Assembly: GCF_036924645.1 (NCBI RefSeq)
Contig: NZ_JAZHRX010000001.1
Span: 496,001 to 560,000, forward strand
DNA length: 64,000 nucleotides
Reading direction: 5' to 3'
Source: Bradyrhizobium sp. AZCC 2176
Lineage (GTDB): Bacteria; Pseudomonadota; Alphaproteobacteria; Rhizobiales; Xanthobacteraceae
In this document: one piece after another, positions 25,144-34,763 of the stretch
Numbering within the stretch: position 1 is the stretch's first letter
Layout: each line of letters begins with the position of its first letter
Made by a program: the position numbers and the translations under genes
The notes under the pieces: model-generated
What the model was told of the DNA's origin: nothing
Database searches by the model: none
Seen by the model: the letters and a program-made list of their open reading frames with translations, nothing else

Positions 25144-28100
25144 ATGAATCTCTCAAAGTTCTTCATCGATCGGCCGATTTTTGCCGGTGTGCTTTCGATC
25201 GTGATCTTCCTGGCCGGCCTGATCTCGCTCTTTGCCATGCCGATCTCGGAGTATCCGGACGTCGTGCCGCCCTCCGTAGTGGTACGGGCGACCTACCCCG
25301 GCGCCAATCCGAAGGTGATCGCGGAGACAGTGGCAACGCCGATCGAGGAGCAGATCAACGGCGTCGAGAACATGCTCTATATGAGCAGCCAGGCAACCAC
25401 CGACGGGGCGATGACGCTGACAGTGACGTTCCGCCTCGGCACCGATCCCGACAAGGCGACGCAGCTTGTGCAGAACCGCGTGCAGCAGGCCGAGCCGCGC
25501 CTGCCGGCGGTAGTTCGCCAGCTCGGCATTATCACCAAGAAGAGTTCGCCCGACCTCACCATGGTCGTGCACCTGCTGTCGCCAAACAACCGCTATGACA
25601 TGACGTATCTCCGCAACTACGCGGTGCTGAACGTCAAGGACCGCCTTGCGCGGATCGACGGCGTTGGTGATGTCCAGCTCTACGGTGCCGGCGACTACTC
25701 GATGCGCGTCTGGGTCGACCCGCAGAAGGCCGCCGAGCACGGCCTGACCGCAAGCGACATCGTGAGGGCGATCCAGGCGCAGAACGTCGAGGCGGCCGCC
25801 GGCGTGGTCGGCTCCTCGCCGAGCGTCAAGGGCATCGACCTTCAGATGTCGGTCAACGCCGAAGGTCGGCTCGCGAGTGAGGAACAGTTCGGCGACATCG
25901 TGGTCAAGACCGGTTCGCGCGGCGAGGTGGTGCGGCTGCGCGACGTCGCGCGCATCGAATTAGGTGCGTCCGCGTACGGCCTGCGCTCGCTGCTCGACAA
26001 CAAACAGGCGGTGGCGATCCCGATCTTCCAGGCGCCGGGCTCCAACGCGCTCGAGATATCCGACCACGTCCGCGCCACCATGGCCGAGATCAGGAAGAAC
26101 ATGCCCGAGGGCGTATCCTACCAGATCGTCTACGACCCCACACAGTTCGTGCGCTCGTCGATCGAGGCGGTGATCCACACGTTGCTGGAAGCGATCGCGC
26201 TGGTGGTGCTGGTGGTCATCCTGTTCCTCCAAACCTGGCGGGCTTCCATCATTCCGCTCCTGGCCGTGCCGGTGTCGATCGTCGGCACATTCGCCGTGAT
26301 GCACGTGTTCGGCTTCTCCATCAATGCGCTCAGCCTGTTCGGCCTGGTGCTCGCGATCGGCATCGTCGTCGACGACGCTATCGTCGTGGTCGAGAACGTC
26401 GAGCGCAACATCGAGGCCGGACTGTCGCCGCGAGACGCCACCTACCAGGCAATGCGGGAAGTTTCCGGCCCCATCATCGCGATCGCACTGGTCTTGATTG
26501 CGGTATTCGTTCCCCTCGCCTTCATCTCCGGCCTCACCGGGCAATTCTACAAGCAGTTCGCGCTAACGATCGCGATCTCGACCGTGATCTCCGCAGTCAA
26601 CTCCCTCACGCTGTCACCGGCATTGTCGGCGTTGCTGCTCAAGGGCCACAATGAACCCAAGGACAGGCTGACCCTCATTCTGGAAAAAGGTTTCGGCTGG
26701 TTCTTCCGCGGCTTCAACCGAGCCTTCGCGCGCTCCTCGGAGAATTATAGCGGCAGCGTCTCCAAAGTGATCTCCGGCAAGGCGGCGGTAATGGGTCTCT
26801 ATGTGCTCCTGGTCGGACTGACCGCCCTGCTGTTCCAGCAGGTGCCGAGCGGCTTCGTCCCCGGCCAGGACAAGCAGTACCTCGTCGGCTTCGCACGCCT
26901 GCCCGACGGCGCCACGCTCGACCGCACCGAAGAGGTCATCCGCAAGATGAGCGAAATTGCGCTGACGCAACCCGGCGTCGAGAGTTCGGTGGCGTTTCCC
27001 GGCCTGTCGATCTCCGGTTTCACCAATTCCTCGAGCGCCGGCATCGTGTTCTCTACGTTGAAGCCGTTCGACGATCGCAAGGATCCGGTGCTGAGCGGCT
27101 CTGCGATCGCGGCCGAGCTGAACAAGAAATATGCCGGGATTCAGGAAGCCTTCATCGCCATGTTTCCGCCGCCGCCCGTCAACGGACTAGGAACCATCGG
27201 CGGCTTCAAGCTCCAGATCGAGGATCGCGCCGGCCTTGGCTACGACGCGTTGAACGAGGCGACCAAGGCGTTCATGGCCGCGATGCAGAAGGCACCGGAA
27301 ATCGCCGGCGTCTTCTCGAGCTTCCAGGTCAACGTGCCACAACTGTTCGCGGACATCGATCGCACCAAGGCCCTCCAGCTTGGCGTTCCGGTAACGGAGG
27401 TATTCAACACGCTGCAAATCTATCTGGGCTCATACTACGTCAACGACTTCAACAAGTTCGGGCGCACCTATTCGGTCTATGTCCAGGCTGACGCGCCGTT
27501 CCGTGCGCGGGCCGACGATATCAGGCAGTTGAAGGTGCGCTCTGCGTCCGGCGACATGATCCCGCTCTCGGCGCTCTTGAAGATTCGCCAGAGCGCCGGG
27601 CCCGAACGCGCGATCCGTTACAACGGTTTCTTGTCCTCCGACATCAACGCCGCGGCAGCGCCCGGCTACTCCTCCGGCCAGGCCCAGGAAGCGGCCACGC
27701 GCATCGCCGCCGAAGTGCTACCGCCTGGCTTCGCCTTTGAATGGACCGACCTGACCTATCAGGAGTTCATCGCCGGCAACTCCGGCATCTGGGTTTTTCC
27801 ACTCGCGATCCTCCTCGTGTTCCTGGTGCTGGCTGCGCTCTATGAGAGCCTGACCCTGCCTCTGTCGATCATCATGATCGTGCCAATGGGGTTGCTTGCC
27901 GCGATGTTCGGCGTCTGGATCTCGAAGGGCGACAATAACGTCTTCACCCAGATCGGGTTGATCGTGCTGGTGGGATTATCTGCCAAGAACGCGATCCTTA
28001 TCGTCGAATTCGCGCGCGAACTGGAGTTCGCAGGTCGTTCGCCGATTCGTGCCGCGATCGAGGCGAGCCGCCTGCGGCTGCGCCCGATCCTGATGACTTC

Positions 28101-28332
28101 GATGGCATTCATCATGGGGGTCTTGCCCCTGGTGCTCTCGACCGGTGCCGGTTCGGAGATGCGCCGAGCCATGGGTGTCGCTGTCTTCTCTGGCATGATC
28201 GGCGTCACGGTGTTTGGCCTGTTCCTGACACCCGTGTTCTACGTTCTATTGCGCACCGTCACGGGACTGAAGCCACTGACCAACCATTCCGCCAGTGTAG
28301 CGACCGGTCGCGCGCCGGAGCCGGGGCGCTAA
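25144..28332 (+). CDS. RND efflux pump permease (MexF-like, HAE1)
   Basis: 1062-residue proton-driven multidrug exporter of the HAE1 family with 12 membrane segments and two large periplasmic loops. It begins MNLSKFFIDRPIFAGVLS and contains ISEYPDVVPPSVVVRATYPGANP. The proton-relay Asp pair is in GIVVDDAIVVVENVERN in TM4, and the relay Lys in GLSAKNAILIVEF in TM10, so the pump should be active. Close resemblance is to MexF-type pumps. No outer-membrane factor gene follows; a TolC-like channel must be elsewhere. Confidence 0.94.
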   Translation: MNLSKFFIDRPIFAGVLSIVIFLAGLISLFAMPISEYPDVVPPSVVVRATYPGANPKVIAETVATPIEEQINGVENMLYMSSQATTDGAMTLTVTFRLGTDPDKATQLVQNRVQQAEPRLPAVVRQLGIITKKSSPDLTMVVHLLSPNNRYDMTYLRNYAVLNVKDRLARIDGVGDVQLYGAGDYSMRVWVDPQKAAEHGLTASDIVRAIQAQNVEAAAGVVGSSPSVKGIDLQMSVNAEGRLASEEQFGDIVVKTGSRGEVVRLRDVARIELGASAYGLRSLLDNKQAVAIPIFQAPGSNALEISDHVRATMAEIRKNMPEGVSYQIVYDPTQFVRSSIEAVIHTLLEAIALVVLVVILFLQTWRASIIPLLAVPVSIVGTFAVMHVFGFSINALSLFGLVLAIGIVVDDAIVVVENVERNIEAGLSPRDATYQAMREVSGPIIAIALVLIAVFVPLAFISGLTGQFYKQFALTIAISTVISAVNSLTLSPALSALLLKGHNEPKDRLTLILEKGFGWFFRGFNRAFARSSENYSGSVSKVISGKAAVMGLYVLLVGLTALLFQQVPSGFVPGQDKQYLVGFARLPDGATLDRTEEVIRKMSEIALTQPGVESSVAFPGLSISGFTNSSSAGIVFSTLKPFDDRKDPVLSGSAIAAELNKKYAGIQEAFIAMFPPPPVNGLGTIGGFKLQIEDRAGLGYDALNEATKAFMAAMQKAPEIAGVFSSFQVNVPQLFADIDRTKALQLGVPVTEVFNTLQIYLGSYYVNDFNKFGRTYSVYVQADAPFRARADDIRQLKVRSASGDMIPLSALLKIRQSAGPERAIRYNGFLSSDINAAAAPGYSSGQAQEAATRIAAEVLPPGFAFEWTDLTYQEFIAGNSGIWVFPLAILLVFLVLAALYESLTLPLSIIMIVPMGLLAAMFGVWISKGDNNVFTQIGLIVLVGLSAKNAILIVEFARELEFAGRSPIRAAIEASRLRLRPILMTSMAFIMGVLPLVLSTGAGSEMRRAMGVAVFSGMIGVTVFGLFLTPVFYVLLRTVTGLKPLTNHSASVATGRAPEPGR

Positions 28333-28500: not shown

Positions 28501-29115
28501 TTAGCCAGACTTGCCGAGAGCCTTCAGGATAAAGCGAATCTGGTCGCGCAAGTCTGCCTCCATATCTTCGCCTTGTTGAACGCAGTGCTCGATCAGAATC
28601 GGATGGAAGAATGGCATGAATGCGGACTTGACCGCTCGCGCGGCTTCCGCGGCATCTTCGACTTCGAACTCGTCCGCTTCGATGCCCTCGCGTATGATCG
28701 CCTCGAAGATCGTCACCATCCGCTCGACGTGCGCCTTGATGATCGCCCAGTTCTCCTGCATGGCGGCGACAATCAGGTCGTGCATGTGCTTTTCCTCGAC
28801 CAGCCTCACCTTCTTGTGGTGGTAAACGGCGGTCAGCAACTGGTCGAGTTTCTCCATGGCCGGCGCGTTCGTGCGTGCGATCACAAACGCGATGTCAGCA
28901 ACCTCGTTCAAAACCCGCCCGCAGATGGACTCGTTGATCGCATCCCTGGAGGGAAAGAAACGGTAGACATTCGCCGGGCTCATCCCGAGTTCGGAGGCGA
29001 TGTCGGCCACCCGCGTCTTATGGTAACCGATGCGGCGAAAGTGCTCCTCCGCCACCTCGAGGATGCGCGCGCGCGTCTCATCTGGATCAGTTCCCGATCG
29101 AACCGGACGATTCAT
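28501..29115 (-). CDS. TetR-family regulator, distal gene of the second efflux operon
   Basis: 204 residues. HTH: TRARILEVAEEHFRRIGYHKTRVADIASELGMSPANVYRFFPSRDAINESI. The C-terminal part is all-helical, typical of AcrR-like ligand domains. It starts 15 bp after the second RND permease on the same strand, so it is probably the last gene of that operon and may feed back on it or on another target. A different TetR gene sits divergently at the other end of the operon. Confidence 0.88.
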   Translation of the reverse strand: MNRPVRSGTDPDETRARILEVAEEHFRRIGYHKTRVADIASELGMSPANVYRFFPSRDAINESICGRVLNEVADIAFVIARTNAPAMEKLDQLLTAVYHHKKVRLVEEKHMHDLIVAAMQENWAIIKAHVERMVTIFEAIIREGIEADEFEVEDAAEAARAVKSAFMPFFHPILIEHCVQQGEDMEADLRDQIRFILKALGKSG

Positions 29116-29130
29116 GGGTACAACAGAGCC

Positions 29131-32100
29131 CTACTCGGCAGCCATCGCTGTTCGCCATTCCGGCTCCTCCTTCGAATCCTCATGGATCTCATCTGTCGTC
29201 GGCTTGATCCGAAACCACGCGGCGTAAAGCGCGGGCAGGAACAGCAGTATCAGCACCGTGCCGACTGCCGTGCCGCCGATCAGCGTGTAGGCCATCGATC
29301 CCCAGAACACGGAATGCGTGAGCGGGATGAAAGCCAGCACGGCGGCAAGTGCGGTCAGGATCACCGGCCTCGTGCGCTGCACGGTTGCCTCGATGACGGC
29401 GTGATAGTCATCAAGGCCGGCAGCTCGGTTCTCCTTGATTTGTTCGGTCAGGATCAGCGTGTTGCGCATCAGGATGCCCGCCAGTCCTATCAGGCCCAGA
29501 ATGGCGTTGAATCCGAAGGGCTGGTTAAAGGTGAGCAACATCGGCACGACGCCGACGAGGCCAAGCGGTCCCGTCAGCACGACCATGGCCATCGTCGAGA
29601 AGGATCGCACCTGCAGCATGATGACGATCAGCATGGCGGCGATCATGGCAGGAAAGACCGTCGCCAACGCGTCGTTGGCCTTGGTTGCCTCCTCGATCGA
29701 TCCGCCCAGTTCGATGCGATAGCCGGCCGGAAGGGATGCGATCAGCGGCTGAAGGGCGGTCTTGATCTCCTTGGAGACCTCCGGAGGCTGGGTCGCCTCA
29801 TTGATATCAGAGCGAACCGTGACGACAGGCGTGCGATCACGGCGCTTCAGAATCGGCTCTTCCAGACGGATTTCCGAATGGCCGACCTGATCGAGCGGGA
29901 TCGGGCGGCCGTCCCGGCTCATCAGTGAGAAATCCGCCAGACGCGTCGGATCCAGCCGCTCGCCGCCGGCGCTGCGTGCGACGATGGGGACATTGCGGAT
30001 GTCCTCGCGGACCTGCGTAACGGCGACGCCCGTAAGGAGGAACTGCAACTGCCGGCCCACCTCCGCTGGCGAGAGGCCGATGAGGTTCAGTCGATCCTGA
30101 TCCGGGACGAAGCGAAGCACGGGTGTGCGATTACCCCAATCACGGTTCGCTTGCCGCACATCGGAAACGCCACGCATGATATCGAGCGCTTTTTCAGAGA
30201 TAGCGTACAATTGCGCGGGGTCAGGCCCCATGACCCGGAACTCGACCGGAAACGGCGTGTAGGGTCCGAACACAAGCTGAGTGACGCGCACATTGGCCTC
30301 AGGTGCAAGCCCATCTGACACGGCCTGTCGGAGCCGGTGCTTCAAAGTTTCGCGCGCCTCCTCATCCGGCGTAAGCACGACGATCTTGGCGAAGGCCGGA
30401 TCAGGCAGCTCCGGCGCCATCGCGAAGAAGAATCGGGGAGCGCCCTGACCGACATAGCTCGTGACGATCTTGGCCTCCGACTGCTGGTCCAGCCAGTGTT
30501 CGAGCTTCTCGACTGTGGCGGTCGTCGTCTCAATGCTGGTGCCTTCCGGCAGGCGAACCTCCACCAGCACTTCCGGGCGGTCGGACGTCGGGAAGAACTG
30601 CTGTTTGAGGGCGCCCATGCCGACGACGGAAAGCGCGAAGGCGATGGCGACGATGCTGCTGGTTACGAACTTGTGGCGCACGGCGAAGGTGATGAGCCCT
30701 CTCAGGCGCCGATAGTTCGGCGTGCCGTAAATCGCGTGGTGACCGCCTTCGATCGGCTTGATCGCCGGCAGCATCTTGACGCCAAGATAGGGCGTGAAGA
30801 CCACCGCGACGATCCAGGAGACGATGAGGGCGAACCCCACGACCCAGAAAATGTTGCCGGCGTATTCACCGGCCGTCGAGCGCGCGAAGCCCACCGGCAG
30901 GAATCCGGCGACCGTCACGAGCGTGCCCGATAACATTGGCGCCGCCGTGTGGCTCCACGCGTAGGCCGCCGCCTTGATGCGGTCCATGCCCTCTTCCATT
31001 TTCACTACCATCACCTCGATGGCGATAATGGCGTCGTCCACGAGAAGACCAAGCGCCAGGATGAGGGCGCCGAGCGTGATGCGGTCGAAGAACCGACCGG
31101 TTTCCAGCATGATGAGGAACACGACGGCAAGCGTCAGAGGGACGGCAGCCGCCACGACGATGCCGACGCGCCAGCCGAGGCTGAGCAGGCTCACCAGCAG
31201 CACCACGCCGAGCGCCATCGCAAACTTCATCATGAATTCGTCAACCGCCGAGGTGATGTTGACGGCCTGGTCGCTGACCTTGGCCAGAGTCATCCCGAGT
31301 GGCAGCGTCCGAGCGATAGCGGCGGACCTCTCCTCCAGCGCCTTGCCGAGCGCGAGGCCATCCCAGCCCTCTTGCATAACCGCCGCGAGCATGACGGCGG
31401 GCTCACCCTGGTGTCGAATGAGGTAAGTGGGAGGGTCCTCGTAGCCGCGGCGGACTTCGGCGATGTCGGAGAGTTTCAGCGTCCGCCCCGCAGCGACGAT
31501 CGGCGTGTCGGCGATCGCCTGGACGCTGTCATAAGCGCCGTCGACCCGGATGAAGACCTGCGGCCCCTTGGTGTCGATCGAGCCTGCCGGTGTGACCGTG
31601 TTCTGCCGCTGCAAGGCGGCAACGATATCCTGTGCCGACACGCCAAGCGTTGACAGTTTGGCATAGGAAAACTCGATGAATATCTGTTCGGGACGTTCAC
31701 CGAGGATGTTGATCTTCTTGACGCCGGGCACGTGCAGGAGGTCCTGGCGAATGGTCTCGGCTTGCCTGGCGAGTTCCCGCATCGGCATGCCCTTCGCCTT
31801 GAGGGCATAAAGGGCAAAGCTCACGTCGGAGTATTCGTCGTTGACGAACGGGCCGAGCACACCAGAGGGCAGCTTGCGCGCTTCATCCCCAAGCTTCTTG
31901 CGGGCCTGGTAGAACTCCTCCTGCACGCTCGATGGCGGTGTGCTGTCCTTCAGCGTAACCGTCATGTACGCATAACCTGGCCGTGTGGTCGTCTCCACCC
32001 GGTCGTACCAGGTCAGCTCCTGAATCCGCTTCTCCAACGGTTCGGCGACCTGGTCCTGCATCTCGCGCGCCGTCGCGCCTGGCCATACGGTCGTGACCGT

Positions 32101-32244
32101 CAGGGTCTTGATGGTGAAGGAGGGGTCCTCCGCACGCCCGAGCATGAGGAAGGCGTAGGCGCCTGCGGCCGCCAGCAGGATGATGAAGAACAGGGTTACG
32201 GCCCGTTCGCGAACGGCGATCGCGGAAAGATTGAAATTCATCAT
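29131..32244 (-). CDS. RND efflux pump permease (second system)
   Basis: 1037 residues, RND fold with 12 membrane segments. It begins MMNFNLSAIAVRERAVTLFF and has AEDPSFTIKTLTVTTVWPGA, unlike MexF. The TM4 Asp pair is in LGLLVDDAIIAIEVMV. At the TM10 position where AcrB has the relay Lys (GLSAKN in the MexF-like protein) this pump reads AGILMRNTLIL, with Arg; a subset of RND pumps has this. Its ATG overlaps, as ATGA, the stop of a remnant MFP reading frame rather than a complete gene. Substrate unknown. Confidence 0.92.
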   Translation of the reverse strand: MMNFNLSAIAVRERAVTLFFIILLAAAGAYAFLMLGRAEDPSFTIKTLTVTTVWPGATAREMQDQVAEPLEKRIQELTWYDRVETTTRPGYAYMTVTLKDSTPPSSVQEEFYQARKKLGDEARKLPSGVLGPFVNDEYSDVSFALYALKAKGMPMRELARQAETIRQDLLHVPGVKKINILGERPEQIFIEFSYAKLSTLGVSAQDIVAALQRQNTVTPAGSIDTKGPQVFIRVDGAYDSVQAIADTPIVAAGRTLKLSDIAEVRRGYEDPPTYLIRHQGEPAVMLAAVMQEGWDGLALGKALEERSAAIARTLPLGMTLAKVSDQAVNITSAVDEFMMKFAMALGVVLLVSLLSLGWRVGIVVAAAVPLTLAVVFLIMLETGRFFDRITLGALILALGLLVDDAIIAIEVMVVKMEEGMDRIKAAAYAWSHTAAPMLSGTLVTVAGFLPVGFARSTAGEYAGNIFWVVGFALIVSWIVAVVFTPYLGVKMLPAIKPIEGGHHAIYGTPNYRRLRGLITFAVRHKFVTSSIVAIAFALSVVGMGALKQQFFPTSDRPEVLVEVRLPEGTSIETTTATVEKLEHWLDQQSEAKIVTSYVGQGAPRFFFAMAPELPDPAFAKIVVLTPDEEARETLKHRLRQAVSDGLAPEANVRVTQLVFGPYTPFPVEFRVMGPDPAQLYAISEKALDIMRGVSDVRQANRDWGNRTPVLRFVPDQDRLNLIGLSPAEVGRQLQFLLTGVAVTQVREDIRNVPIVARSAGGERLDPTRLADFSLMSRDGRPIPLDQVGHSEIRLEEPILKRRDRTPVVTVRSDINEATQPPEVSKEIKTALQPLIASLPAGYRIELGGSIEEATKANDALATVFPAMIAAMLIVIMLQVRSFSTMAMVVLTGPLGLVGVVPMLLTFNQPFGFNAILGLIGLAGILMRNTLILTEQIKENRAAGLDDYHAVIEATVQRTRPVILTALAAVLAFIPLTHSVFWGSMAYTLIGGTAVGTVLILLFLPALYAAWFRIKPTTDEIHEDSKEEPEWRTAMAAE

Positions 32245-32318
32245 TTGGCCACTCCTATTTCCTCGACGTTCGTCCTGACGCTCGCGCCGTCCTGCAGCAG
32301 GTGGGCGCCGAGTGAACC
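32241..32318 (-). pseudogene. Remnant: C-terminus of a second MFP gene
   Basis: In the frame ending TGA at 32241-32243, the minus strand encodes GSLGAHLLQDGASVRTNVEE..., about 25 codons. This aligns with the last residues of the complete adaptor at 32857-33969 (VSLGAHLLHEGARVRTASE...). It has no start and is cut off at about 32318 by the end of the SnoaL-like gene. The sequence differs from the intact copy at several codons, so it derives from a paralogue rather than a fresh duplication. Confidence 0.8.
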
Positions 32319-32326
32319 GCGCTTAT

Positions 32327-32815
32327 CTAAAAAGCGCGGCCTCTGACTGCGCTTCTGCTACTTACAATTGGTTCGGCGACAGCTTCTTTGAGGCCAGCTG
32401 CCGCTTGGGCGGCAAGCCCACGGGCCGCTTCCTGCGAATCTTGAAATTCCTCGAGTGCATAGACTCTACCCCACCGCAGGGTGAACACGTGGAGACCACG
32501 GTTGACGTACGACGCGTCGCCGTTGAGCAGCGTTGCGGTGGCGTCCCATTGAGCAAACACGGTGGTGTTCCACGGCCAGCCCTTCACCCAGATGTTGTTG
32601 ACCGTGAGATGGAGAGTGGGCAGGACGCGGCCGAGGCGCTCAAACCAGCGGCGCAGGGCTTCTTTGTCGTGGCGCTCACCACCAAGCGCGTGGGCGCCGG
32701 AAACGCGGTGGTGGACATTGGGCGCGACCGCTTTTACCGCGTCATCCCAGCGATGGTTGTTGACGTGGTCGAAGGTCTTTCGGATTTCTTTCTTGACGAT
32801 GTAGCTGTATAGCAT
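32327..32815 (-). CDS. SnoaL/NTF2-like protein inserted in the efflux operon
   Basis: 162 residues, NTF2-fold: an N-terminal helix (IRKTFDHVNNHRWDDAVKAVAPNVHHRVSG), then GGERHDKEALRRWFERLGRVLPTLHLTVNNIWVKGWPWNTTVFAQWDATA and NRGLHVFTLRWGRVYALEEF. SnoaL-like proteins are small cyclases, isomerases or ligand-binding proteins; no catalytic set can be named here. The ATG has GGAGGA five bases before it. It lies between remnants of an RND gene (upstream) and an MFP gene (downstream), so it entered or survived an operon rearrangement. Confidence 0.7.
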   Translation of the reverse strand: MLYSYIVKKEIRKTFDHVNNHRWDDAVKAVAPNVHHRVSGAHALGGERHDKEALRRWFERLGRVLPTLHLTVNNIWVKGWPWNTTVFAQWDATATLLNGDASYVNRGLHVFTLRWGRVYALEEFQDSQEAARGLAAQAAAGLKEAVAEPIVSSRSAVRGRAF

Positions 32816-32826
32816 TTGCCGTCCTC

Positions 32827-32858
32827 CGACGGTGATCGCGGAAAGATTGAAGCTCGTT
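32827..32858 (-). pseudogene. Remnant: N-terminus of a second RND permease gene
   Basis: Directly after the stop of the complete adaptor gene the minus strand reads ACG AGC TTC AAT CTT TCC GCG ATC ACC GTC, i.e. xSFNLSAITV. This matches the start of the intact permease (MNFNLSAIAV); 18 bases are identical between 32834-32851 and 32218-32235. The expected ATG is ACG here. About ten codons remain before the SnoaL-like gene's ribosome-binding site. Confidence 0.75.
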
Positions 32859-33969
32859 AGTTTCCGTTGTTTTCAGATGCAGTCCTGACGCGCGCACCCT
32901 CGTGCAGGAGGTGAGCGCCGAGGGAAACAATCGGATCACCGGAGCTCAACCCAGAGATCACGGCGGTTTCGCTGCTCACCCGAACAAGCTTGACCGGCTG
33001 AAAGCGAACGGTTGAGTTGGCGCTATCCAGGACCCACACACCGGTCTTCCGGCCGTCATCGAGCACGGCTCCCAGCGGCACCTGAACTTCCGGCTGACTC
33101 GCTTGGCTTGCCAGCCGAATGGTTACCGTGGCGCCAAGCGGTGCCGCCGCGGCCTCACCGTCGAGCACATAACGCGCCTCATAGGTACGGGTCTGAGCAT
33201 CGGCGGAATCCGACAACTGCCGCAGATGCGCCGTGTAGCGCCGTCCATCGGCCGCCCCATACACGCTGGCCTCGGCCACGGAGCCGATCGCTGGCCGGAT
33301 CGTTTCGGGAAGCGCGACCACCGCTTCGCGGGGGCCGGCCTTTGCGATCCGAATGACTGTCTGGCCGGCAGAGACGACCTGCCCGGGCTCGCCAAGCGTT
33401 TCGACCACCGTTCCGTCCGCATCCGCTAACAGGACCGAGTAGGTCGCCTCATTCTCGGCGACCCGCGCATCTGCTTCGGCGGTGGCGAGTTGCGCCTCGG
33501 CCGTATCCAACGCGGCCTTCGCTTGCTCGTAGCGCTGTCGGGAAGCCCATCCGTTGCTCACCAACTTTGCGTATCGCTGTTCATCCGCGTCGGTCTGCAC
33601 GACAGATGCACGCGCTGCGGCAACGGCGTTGCGCTTTGCCGTGACCGCAAGGCGAAGGTCGGTTTCGTCGATCCGCATCAGCGGTTCACCGGCTTTGACC
33701 TGCTGACCGGTATTCACCAGCCGTTCCACGATCTTGCCGGCGACGCGAAAGCCGAGGTTGCTCTGCACCCTCGCCCCGATGACGCCCGTGAAGCCGCGTT
33801 CGGATCCGTTCACCCGCGCTGCCGTCGCCAGTCTGACCATCGGCGGTTCCTGCCTCGGGTCACGCGCCGCGGAAGCTTCTTGGGCGGGAATAGCAAGAGT
33901 AGCGAAGACGGCCGCTCCGGACGCCACGATCAGGACACCTGCCAAGACCAAAAGTCTGCTCTTTCTCAT
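32857..33969 (-). CDS. RND efflux periplasmic adaptor (second system)
   Basis: 370-residue membrane-fusion protein. N-terminal hydrophobic signal/anchor LLVLAGVLIVASGAAVFATLA, lipoyl motif VQSNLGFRVAGKIVERLVNTGQQVKAGEPLMRIDETDL, alpha-hairpin rich in Ala/Glu (RQRYEQAKAALDTAEAQLATAEADARVAENEA), second half TYSVLLADADGTVVETLGEPGQVVSAGQTVIRIA, then the barrel domains. ATG 33969 has TTGGAG six bases upstream; ATG 33975 and TTG 33981 are alternatives. First gene of the operon, divergent from a TetR gene with long palindromes between. Confidence 0.9.
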   Translation of the reverse strand: MRKSRLLVLAGVLIVASGAAVFATLAIPAQEASAARDPRQEPPMVRLATAARVNGSERGFTGVIGARVQSNLGFRVAGKIVERLVNTGQQVKAGEPLMRIDETDLRLAVTAKRNAVAAARASVVQTDADEQRYAKLVSNGWASRQRYEQAKAALDTAEAQLATAEADARVAENEATYSVLLADADGTVVETLGEPGQVVSAGQTVIRIAKAGPREAVVALPETIRPAIGSVAEASVYGAADGRRYTAHLRQLSDSADAQTRTYEARYVLDGEAAAAPLGATVTIRLASQASQPEVQVPLGAVLDDGRKTGVWVLDSANSTVRFQPVKLVRVSSETAVISGLSSGDPIVSLGAHLLHEGARVRTASENNGN

Positions 33970-33988
33970 TGCCATCTCCAAGCCACTT

Positions 33989-34035
33989 AGATTTCATTCG
34001 AACTCTATAATCACATTAGAGTTCGATCGCAATCT
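33989..34035. promoter_or_regulatory. Palindromic operator, MFP-proximal
   Basis: TCGAACTCTA (33998-34007) and its exact reverse complement TAGAGTTCGA (34017-34026) are separated by nine bases. The match extends outward (AGATTTCAT on the left, GATCGCAATCT on the right), giving half-sites of about 19 bp. The same design recurs at 34123-34169. It lies about 30 bp upstream of the second adaptor gene. Confidence 0.7.
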
Positions 34036-34122
34036 AAATTGGAGCGTTGACGAAAACGTGATCCCGCGAAATAGGCCACTTCGACCCCCGGGAGCCTCAG
34101 ATTCCGCCATACCCCACTTGAT

Positions 34123-34169
34123 AGATTGCGTTCGCACTCTATCTGAGCTATAGAGTTCGACCGAAATCC
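34123..34169. promoter_or_regulatory. Palindromic operator, TetR-proximal
   Basis: TCGCACTCTA (34132-34141) and TAGAGTTCGA (34151-34160) are separated by nine bases, the same geometry as the first palindrome with one base changed. Outer matches (AGATTGCG left, CCGAAATCC right) again extend each arm to about 19 bp. It lies 24 bp before the TetR start, so the TetR protein probably represses both itself and the efflux operon. Confidence 0.7.
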
Positions 34170-34184
34170 AAATGGAGGTCCACG

Positions 34185-34763
34185 ATGCGGGTGAGTCGCA
34201 TTCAAGCCGCGGAGAACCGCCAAACCGTGATCAATGTGGCGAGTCGCCTCTTCAGGAAGCGCGGCTTTGACGGTATCGGGCTCAAGGATCTGATGGAGGG
34301 GGCCGGGCTAACCCAGGGCGCCTTCTACAAGCAATTCGCCTCAAAAGAGGATTTGGCGGTAGAGGCGTCCAGGCGGGCATTGGAGAGCGCCTCCGGCCGA
34401 TGGTCGGACGCGGCCGCTCAGAATCCTGATGATCCGCTTGGCGCGGTGATCGCGTTTTACCTCAGCGGCGACCATCGTGAAGAAAAGATGGACGGCTGCC
34501 CGATCGTGGCACTCGGCTCAGATGCCGCCCGACAGGGCGCCGACGTGAAGGCGGAATTCGAAGCGGGAATCAAAGCGCATCTCGACGTGCTCGGCCGCTT
34601 CATCGCCGGGACCGGCGATGAGGCCTCCCGCGGCAAGGCTATGGCCATTCTCGCGACGATGGTCGGCGCGGTGACGCTATCGCGCGTCGTCAACGACCCT
34701 GATCTGGCTCAGGCGCTTTTGGATGCCGCGACCGAACAGGTCCGCGACGCCGCTGCCGCTTGA
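34185..34763 (+). CDS. TetR-family regulator divergent from the second efflux operon
   Basis: 192 residues. HTH: RQTVINVASRLFRKRGFDGIGLKDLMEGAGLTQGAFYKQFASKEDLAVEA, of the NemR/YxaF-like TetR_C branch; the C-terminal part includes DGCPIVALGSDAARQG, typical of that branch. The ATG has TGGAGG six bases upstream. Two matching inverted repeats occupy the shared promoter region. The downstream hydrolase is 30 bp away on the same strand. Confidence 0.9.
   Translation: MRVSRIQAAENRQTVINVASRLFRKRGFDGIGLKDLMEGAGLTQGAFYKQFASKEDLAVEASRRALESASGRWSDAAAQNPDDPLGAVIAFYLSGDHREEKMDGCPIVALGSDAARQGADVKAEFEAGIKAHLDVLGRFIAGTGDEASRGKAMAILATMVGAVTLSRVVNDPDLAQALLDAATEQVRDAAAA

Follow-up and report, generated by a model that had tools for sequence, protein, structure and literature searches.

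The 64-kb stretch of DNA analysed here (the window), from Bradyrhizobium sp. AZCC 2176, contains on its minus strand an efflux operon of the resistance-nodulation-division (RND) type in which a SnoaL-like gene, designated S, separates the adaptor gene from the pump gene. The order is adaptor, pump-start remnant, S, adaptor-end remnant, and pump (Table 1). Adaptor end and pump start together form an imperfect direct repeat of about 105 bp that is present on both sides of S. Its local alignment score is 45.5, compared with a best score of 17 among 1,784 background windows drawn from this 64-kb sequence, and the two flanks of S match each other by blastn at 72% over 105 nt (E 6.6e-10). An earlier note had read from the sequence that two remnants surround S between a complete adaptor and a complete pump; this order is borne out by the repeat, as is the statement that the remnants differ from the intact copies, neither being identical to its own.

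The pump-start remnant (ACG AGC TTC AAT CTT TCC GCG ATC ACC GTC; T-S-F-N-L-S-A-I-T-V) overlaps the adaptor stop codon and has ACG where ATG is expected, and the TGA of the adaptor-end remnant overlaps the ATG of the pump as ATGA. Seven of the 26 Bradyrhizobium carriers of S described below still have ATG at the remnant (L045, L053, L054, L061, L143, L152, and L172; by eye), and the change of ATG to ACG postulated in that note is therefore confirmed.

The S product matches the Pfam family SnoaL_2 (PF12680) with 52.2 bits (cut-off 27) and falls below the cut-off of the SnoaL polyketide cyclase family proper (PF07366; 24.4 versus 28.4 bits); by sequence it has no solved relative at E 0.001. Its structure model (predicted local distance difference test, pLDDT, 90.8) has an NTF2-like fold, and is matched by Foldseek to a limonene-epoxide hydrolase (5aii), TerC (6d34), and Bal32a (1tuh) with probability 1.00. 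S is under purifying selection, the median pairwise ratio of nonsynonymous to synonymous divergence (dN/dS) being 0.19 (codon-aligned, 251 of 253 pairs), and is intact in 23 of the 26 Bradyrhizobium carriers. In the other three (L038, L039, and L053) it has an early stop or a frameshift beside an adaptor and a pump that are matched over the available length, so that S seems dispensable in some strains. In relatives S mostly ends at about 152 codons; in the window (32327-32365) a one-base deletion removed the ancestral stop (AGT-TAG in relatives), and S runs ten residues (SRSAVRGRAF) further into the scar spacer.

Table 1. Features of the efflux locus in the window
Feature	Position	Strand	Basis
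Adaptor (RND membrane fusion protein), intact	32857..33981	-	NCBIfam RND_mfp TIGR01730, 201.3 bits (cut-off 94.9)
Pump-start remnant, ten codons	32828..32857	-	Sequence; empty loci have a real pump start there
Ribosome-binding leader of S (GGAGGACGGCAA), 5' end of the S-derived DNA	32816..32827	-	Leaders compared by eye
S, SnoaL-like (NTF2-fold) gene, 162 codons	32327..32815	-	Pfam SnoaL_2, alignments, structure model
3' flank of S, G+C-rich hairpin, abutting the adaptor remnant	32315..32341	-	Folding; comparison with Mesorhizobium by eye
Adaptor C-terminus remnant, 24 codons (SLGAHLLQDGASVRTNVEEIGVAK) and TGA	32241..32315	-	Sequence, alignments
RND pump, intact, 1037 codons, beginning ATG ATG	29131..32244	-	Pfam ACR_tran, 466.6 bits
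tetR/adaptor intergenic region, partly palindromic operator-like stretch	33982..34184	.	Match to the reference unit
Divergent TetR-family repressor gene (predicted)	34185..34763	+	Pfam TetR_N, 45.8 bits (cut-off 24)

The remnant coordinates were counted by eye, and the Pfam scan covered seven window proteins, among which the adaptor also matches HlyD_3 and HlyD_D23. By eye, the 3' flank of S resembles that of the Mesorhizobium S loci, and the S leader resembles theirs in outline. A 101-nt stretch of the scar folds as RNA no better than its shuffles (z -1.18). The operator-like stretch corresponds to u604-668 of the reference unit introduced below, which matches in inverted orientation too, and the tetR stretch is matched in the window and in the 15 named Bradyrhizobium S loci mapped. 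The paralogues of the two transport genes within the same genome share 49% identity for the pump and 35% for the adaptor. Next to the module there is another, distantly related RND pump (25144-28332, plus strand), with another TetR gene (28501-29115, minus strand) between the two pumps.

Bradyrhizobium loci with and without S

Some RND match is present in all 265 genomes of the genus, and an orthologous pump (at least 90%) at about 70 loci. Seventy loci were compared, the window included; the contig-broken G418 is outside this set, and G472 and G491 were seen only as S loci (L082 and L083) with remains of adaptor or pump. S stands between adaptor and pump in 26 of the 70, and the remaining 44 are empty. 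The adaptor directly precedes the pump in all 44 empty loci, the pump starting 0-13 nt after the adaptor match ends (the gap of 413 in L160 reflects a split hit, the second part of which ends at the pump), and a TGATG overlap is found at the pump start in 40 of them. In four of the 26 carriers (L062, L145, L158, and L161) there is no adaptor remnant and the pump follows S directly; in L173 only the pump end remains. G474, G475, G476, and G478 contain two or three orthologous pumps each, but these are widely separated or lie on separate contigs. A second SnoaL-like gene, about 61-64% identical to S, belongs to another operon (L085 1-3468: pyridine-nucleotide oxidoreductase, unknown, SnoaL-like, methyltransferase) and, in G466, G467, and G475, follows the orthologous pump at a distance of a few kb.

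Trees were calculated for the adaptor (80 of 82 loci; L160 and L113 were left out because their hits are too short) and the pump (79 of 82; without L122, L116, and L173), and approximately unbiased (AU) tests were run on the 77 rows common to both genes. In the adaptor tree the sister of the window is the empty locus L040 (support 98, starred), within a starred set formed by 13 carriers and L040. In the 79-row pump tree L040 is again nearest to the window (support 83), and the set around the window (support 88) comprises all 14 rows of the adaptor set and two more carriers. Neither core is rejected by the data of the other gene, p-AU being 0.512 for the adaptor core under the pump data and 0.176 for the pump core under the adaptor data. 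In the 77-row run the adaptor tree retains the pair of the window and L040 (99, starred), and the pump data permit it (0.811). For the pump, L040 here ranks third in path distance from the window; the 14-row adaptor set loses its star, and the next set with a star has 22 rows.

Since the window has largely the same neighbours in both trees and neither core is rejected, the claim of the earlier note that its adaptor and pump come from different systems, with disagreeing phylogenies, is unsupported. Disagreement is seen in some other carriers, L054, L061, L134, L158, and L161 being placed differently in the two trees. The carriers do not form one clade in either tree (seven and eight changes) and are intermixed with empty loci. 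The S allele has probably moved among strains, or been lost, by recombination. As L040 (G300) is empty and nested among carriers, the insert was either lost cleanly there or gained lately.

The adaptor-end remnant was compared by codon in 17 carriers with 79 coding ends (52 native and 27 upstream); in ten further carriers (L036, L045, L053, L059, L062, L145, L158, L161, L172, and L094) it is absent or too altered and was left out. From the majority of intact ends the remnant differs at eight of 45 bases (15 codons), seven of which are third codon positions, and the variable sites among the 17 remnants number 4, 8, and 9 by codon position (Fisher p 0.044). Such mostly third-position differences lean, weakly, to a remnant that diverged while it was still coding. 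Its tail, TNVEEIGVAK, is found in none of the 52 native adaptor ends, which typically read TASE.RSN or alike. At up to three mismatches the 26-base tail occurs in three of 397 genomes of the order (the window, one carrier, and an unrelated gene in L174) and in eight of the 265 genomes of the genus, all carriers, and no intact adaptor with this tail was found among them. The window and M. alhagi (L108) share a similar remnant, eight of 45 bases in the latter, and one of 26 in the tail, being off the majority; its presence in both speaks for one origin. Whether this tail, standing in front of the pump, might be a second leader of S was also considered: five of 20 S leaders score above every one of the 104 control leaders, but the scores of native adaptor ends are just as high, and the candidate was rejected.

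Module copies around S in Mesorhizobium and Rhizobium

When the species-genome collection was scanned with S, 45 loci were obtained, and in the genus of M. amorphae S was found at E 1e-40 in 27 of 146 genomes. Outside Bradyrhizobium the order adaptor-S-pump occurs in L094 and L108, and in L116 as far as the contig reaches; in the other Mesorhizobium and Rhizobium loci S mostly follows a divergent tetR. Thirty-one distinct S loci, duplicate records being counted once, were mapped against an intact tetR-operator-adaptor-pump unit taken from L194 (the reference unit). To the right of S, 14 of the 31 have a second copy of the tetR 5' part and operator, in which tetR is broken or shortened (L095, L099, L100, L101, L103, L104, L110, L113, L114, L115, L125, L128, L179, and L185). 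Adaptor and pump follow the second copy in seven of these (L100, L101, L103, L110, L114, L128, and L185), and there the pump is complete or open to the locus end.

Different parts survive in different loci. For example, L095 (extended as L192) has tetR1, operator, and a truncated adaptor (residues 13-160) to the left of S, and the 5' part of tetR2 with an operator to the right. In L113 (extended as L193, G921:C95:40000-58563) a tetR remnant, adaptor, and pump are followed by tetR1, S, and a tetR2 pseudogene, so that three module (tetR/operator) copies are present in one locus. An adaptor fragment lies to the right of S in L098 and L126 and after tetR2 in L179, and a pump fragment (u4105-4297) lies to the right of S in L111. 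In the controls, no hits of at least 40 nt were obtained in 50 shuffled regions, and none in the distal stretches of the 12 loci counted (58 distal regions scanned). Traces of the adaptor/pump border upstream of S were also sought in 22 loci without the adaptor-S-pump order; the best p values were 0.003 (L190) and 0.03 (L126), all others being at least 0.07, and these traces were counted as no evidence.

The S tree comprises 52 rows (duplicates, L181, L123, L129, L130, L132, and L133 being left out). The Bradyrhizobium genes group together with one long foreign row, L121 (93/92, not starred), and the Mesorhizobium tetR-S genes form a clade (98/97, starred) with L094 as a weakly supported sister (87/80). 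L095, L108, L112, L116, and L177 branch outside both groups. Given this branching, it does not appear that the adaptor-S-pump order was derived late from tetR-S. Relatives of S are present on eight of 72,556 plasmids, five of them at 80-90% on large Rhizobium and Phyllobacterium plasmids (NZ_CP064188.1, NZ_CP092346.1, NZ_CP121642.1, NZ_CP017942.1, and NZ_CP104971.1).

Origin of the arrangement around S

We lean towards the reading that copies of one module resembling MexL-MexJK flanked S and were eroded differently in each lineage. Finding S between differently eroded module copies outside Bradyrhizobium is as a collapsed tandem predicts, and partly eroded second copies are present in Mesorhizobium and Rhizobium, with no whole tandem there and none in Bradyrhizobium. 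The ancestor would have contained two tandem copies, tetR1-op1-A1-P1 and tetR2-op2-A2-P2 (op, operator; A, adaptor; P, pump), with S at their joint, and redundant parts beside S would have been deleted, differently by lineage. In the lineage of the window P1 would have been lost after codon 10, and tetR2-op2-A2 except for the last 25 codons of A2, so that Bradyrhizobium would retain the upstream adaptor (A1) and the downstream pump (P2). In Mesorhizobium A1 and P1 would have been lost and tetR2 would have decayed, with the downstream A2 and P2 surviving. Homologous recombination through the genes on either side may then have spread the S-carrying allele among strains and also led to its loss.

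Adaptor, S, and pump are probably transcribed together under control of the divergent TetR, and S may act in the cytoplasm on a compound that is exported by the pump or that de-represses TetR. In L117 (Hyphomicrobium), a far relative, S lies near tetR-like, hydrolase, and glutathione-transferase genes; in view of this context it is plausible that S converts small hydrophobic compounds which the module senses or exports.

Several observations weigh against a collapsed tandem. The earlier note had proposed two tandem pairs around S; the eroded copies in Mesorhizobium and Rhizobium and the third-position signal agree with it, but an intact tandem was not seen. Within the flanks available (1.5-8 kb or so), the adaptor-pump-S-adaptor-pump order that was to be sought in relatives is absent from all 70 Bradyrhizobium and all 31 Mesorhizobium and Rhizobium loci, the nearest to it being L193, and a tandem second pair occurs in none of the 70; in 16 genomes searched for a second adaptor, no more than one orthologue was found per genome. 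Decay of the pump-start remnant is slight: in 16 of 18 carriers it has one to three mismatches in 23 nt from native starts (12 empty loci). Third-position variation predominates among native adaptor ends as well, and each base of the 45-base remnant majority is found in some of the 79 coding ends, which places this part within the family's range, so that the codon signal is weak. In Mesorhizobium and Rhizobium, L098 has only weak adaptor traces to the left of S (E 0.002 each). In L115 and L125 an adaptor fragment (u1477-1528) separates S from tetR2, at 0.63-0.68 kb after the S start, which does not fit the order predicted by the model, and L180, L184, L186, L188, and L190 are among the loci with tetR-S and no trace of a second copy. 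Moreover, a single insertion with a duplication of about 105 bp at its borders gives the same end product. The earlier note had named such an insertion, with one-pump relatives, as what would speak against it, and it describes the Bradyrhizobium data equally well.

According to that alternative, which we regard as possible though rather unlikely, no second operon ever existed: S, with about 16 nt of leader and about 60 nt of 3' flank, would have entered a single operon in one event where adaptor and pump meet, and the 105 bp or so from adaptor codon -25 to pump codon 10 would have been duplicated when a staggered or replicated break was repaired. The Mesorhizobium loci would be separate events of like kind next to tetR. 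One event instead of three is required, with fewer steps in Bradyrhizobium; the 44 empty loci among the 70 are one-pump sites, the S-derived DNA looks short on both sides (by eye), no extant tandem was found, and the direct repeat that a target duplication leaves is present on both sides of S. The carriers without the adaptor remnant, and also L091-L094, have only a pump-start repeat of about 30 bp. However, S must then have landed repeatedly at duplication joints of the same module, the extents of the repeats differ widely (30-105 bp versus several hundred bp of tetR-operator), and the remnant adaptor end, with its mostly third-position differences and its tail absent from the 52 native ends, does not look like a copy of the neighbouring end.

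It is improbable that a Mesorhizobium-like S-adaptor-pump segment recombined into a resident operon, whether homologously or in a one-sided (homology-assisted) manner, so that S was joined on its left to pump codon 10, with one later deletion of the incoming adaptor. Mesorhizobium does have S-tetR2-adaptor-pump in that order, and loci with S after an adaptor are present in both groups (L094, L108, and L116), but the pump of the window falls among those of Bradyrhizobium and not in the Mesorhizobium clade (100, starred), the Mesorhizobium adaptor ends that were read lack the remnant tail, and in the S tree the loci with adaptor-S-pump order do not branch from within the tetR-S clade. That two different paralogous RND systems stood in tandem and left a hybrid pair is most improbable, and the trees and AU tests lead us to reject it for the window: the divergence of the remnants from the intact copies and the discordant placement of five other carriers favour it, but the window has largely the same neighbours in both trees, its pairing with L040 is supported by one gene and allowed by the other, the carrier genes are intermixed with those of empty loci, and the paralogues within the genome are distant.

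A collapsed tandem of one module remains the reading towards which we lean. A wider proposition, which we put forward as doubtful, is that S recurs at duplicated tetR-adaptor-pump joints across the Rhizobiales, either because its arrival duplicates the module or because such joints capture and protect it, the redundant adaptor being resolved oppositely in the two genera.

Comparison with known systems

The locus offers a readable case of operon remodelling, in which one duplicated efflux module was apparently resolved oppositely in two genera around S, and empty, half-eroded, and collapsed stages are all present in the databases. In addition, a conserved SnoaL-like protein is thereby connected with a pump resembling MexJK. 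Its interest is evolutionary, the biochemistry being ordinary. No paper connecting SnoaL with RND efflux and TetR, or SnoaL with MexJ, was found in the literature searched (full text), and novelty is claimed against that literature only; in the portions of it that were available, no case matching a tandem duplication or collapse of RND operons with remnants was found.

Among solved structures the best phmmer relative of the pump is MexK (9xwg, E 6.6e-264), followed by 6vej (E 3.6e-229), which is listed as a probable RND efflux transporter and which we take to be TriC; the next chain group is at 6.1e-56. Like MexL-MexJK of P. aeruginosa, the window has a module of (predicted) TetR repressor, adaptor, and RND pump, and the divergent tetR adjoins the operon in relatives also. 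MexJK has the TetR-family repressor MexL and the outer-membrane partners OprM or OpmH, and the parts of that account consulted mention no SnoaL-like gene (PMC9323910). The window differs also in that its adaptor/pump border is duplicated and split by S.

The predicted fold of S is shared with SnoaL_2/NTF2-like enzymes (5aii, TerC 6d34, and the soil cassette protein Bal32a, 1tuh), at a sequence identity of 17-18%. Tandem duplication followed by deletion is the classical remodelling by gene amplification. The proposed history resembles it in having two copies, the loss of redundant inner parts, and scars at the joints, and is unlike it in that an unrelated gene lies at the joint and the two genera seem to keep opposite adaptors.

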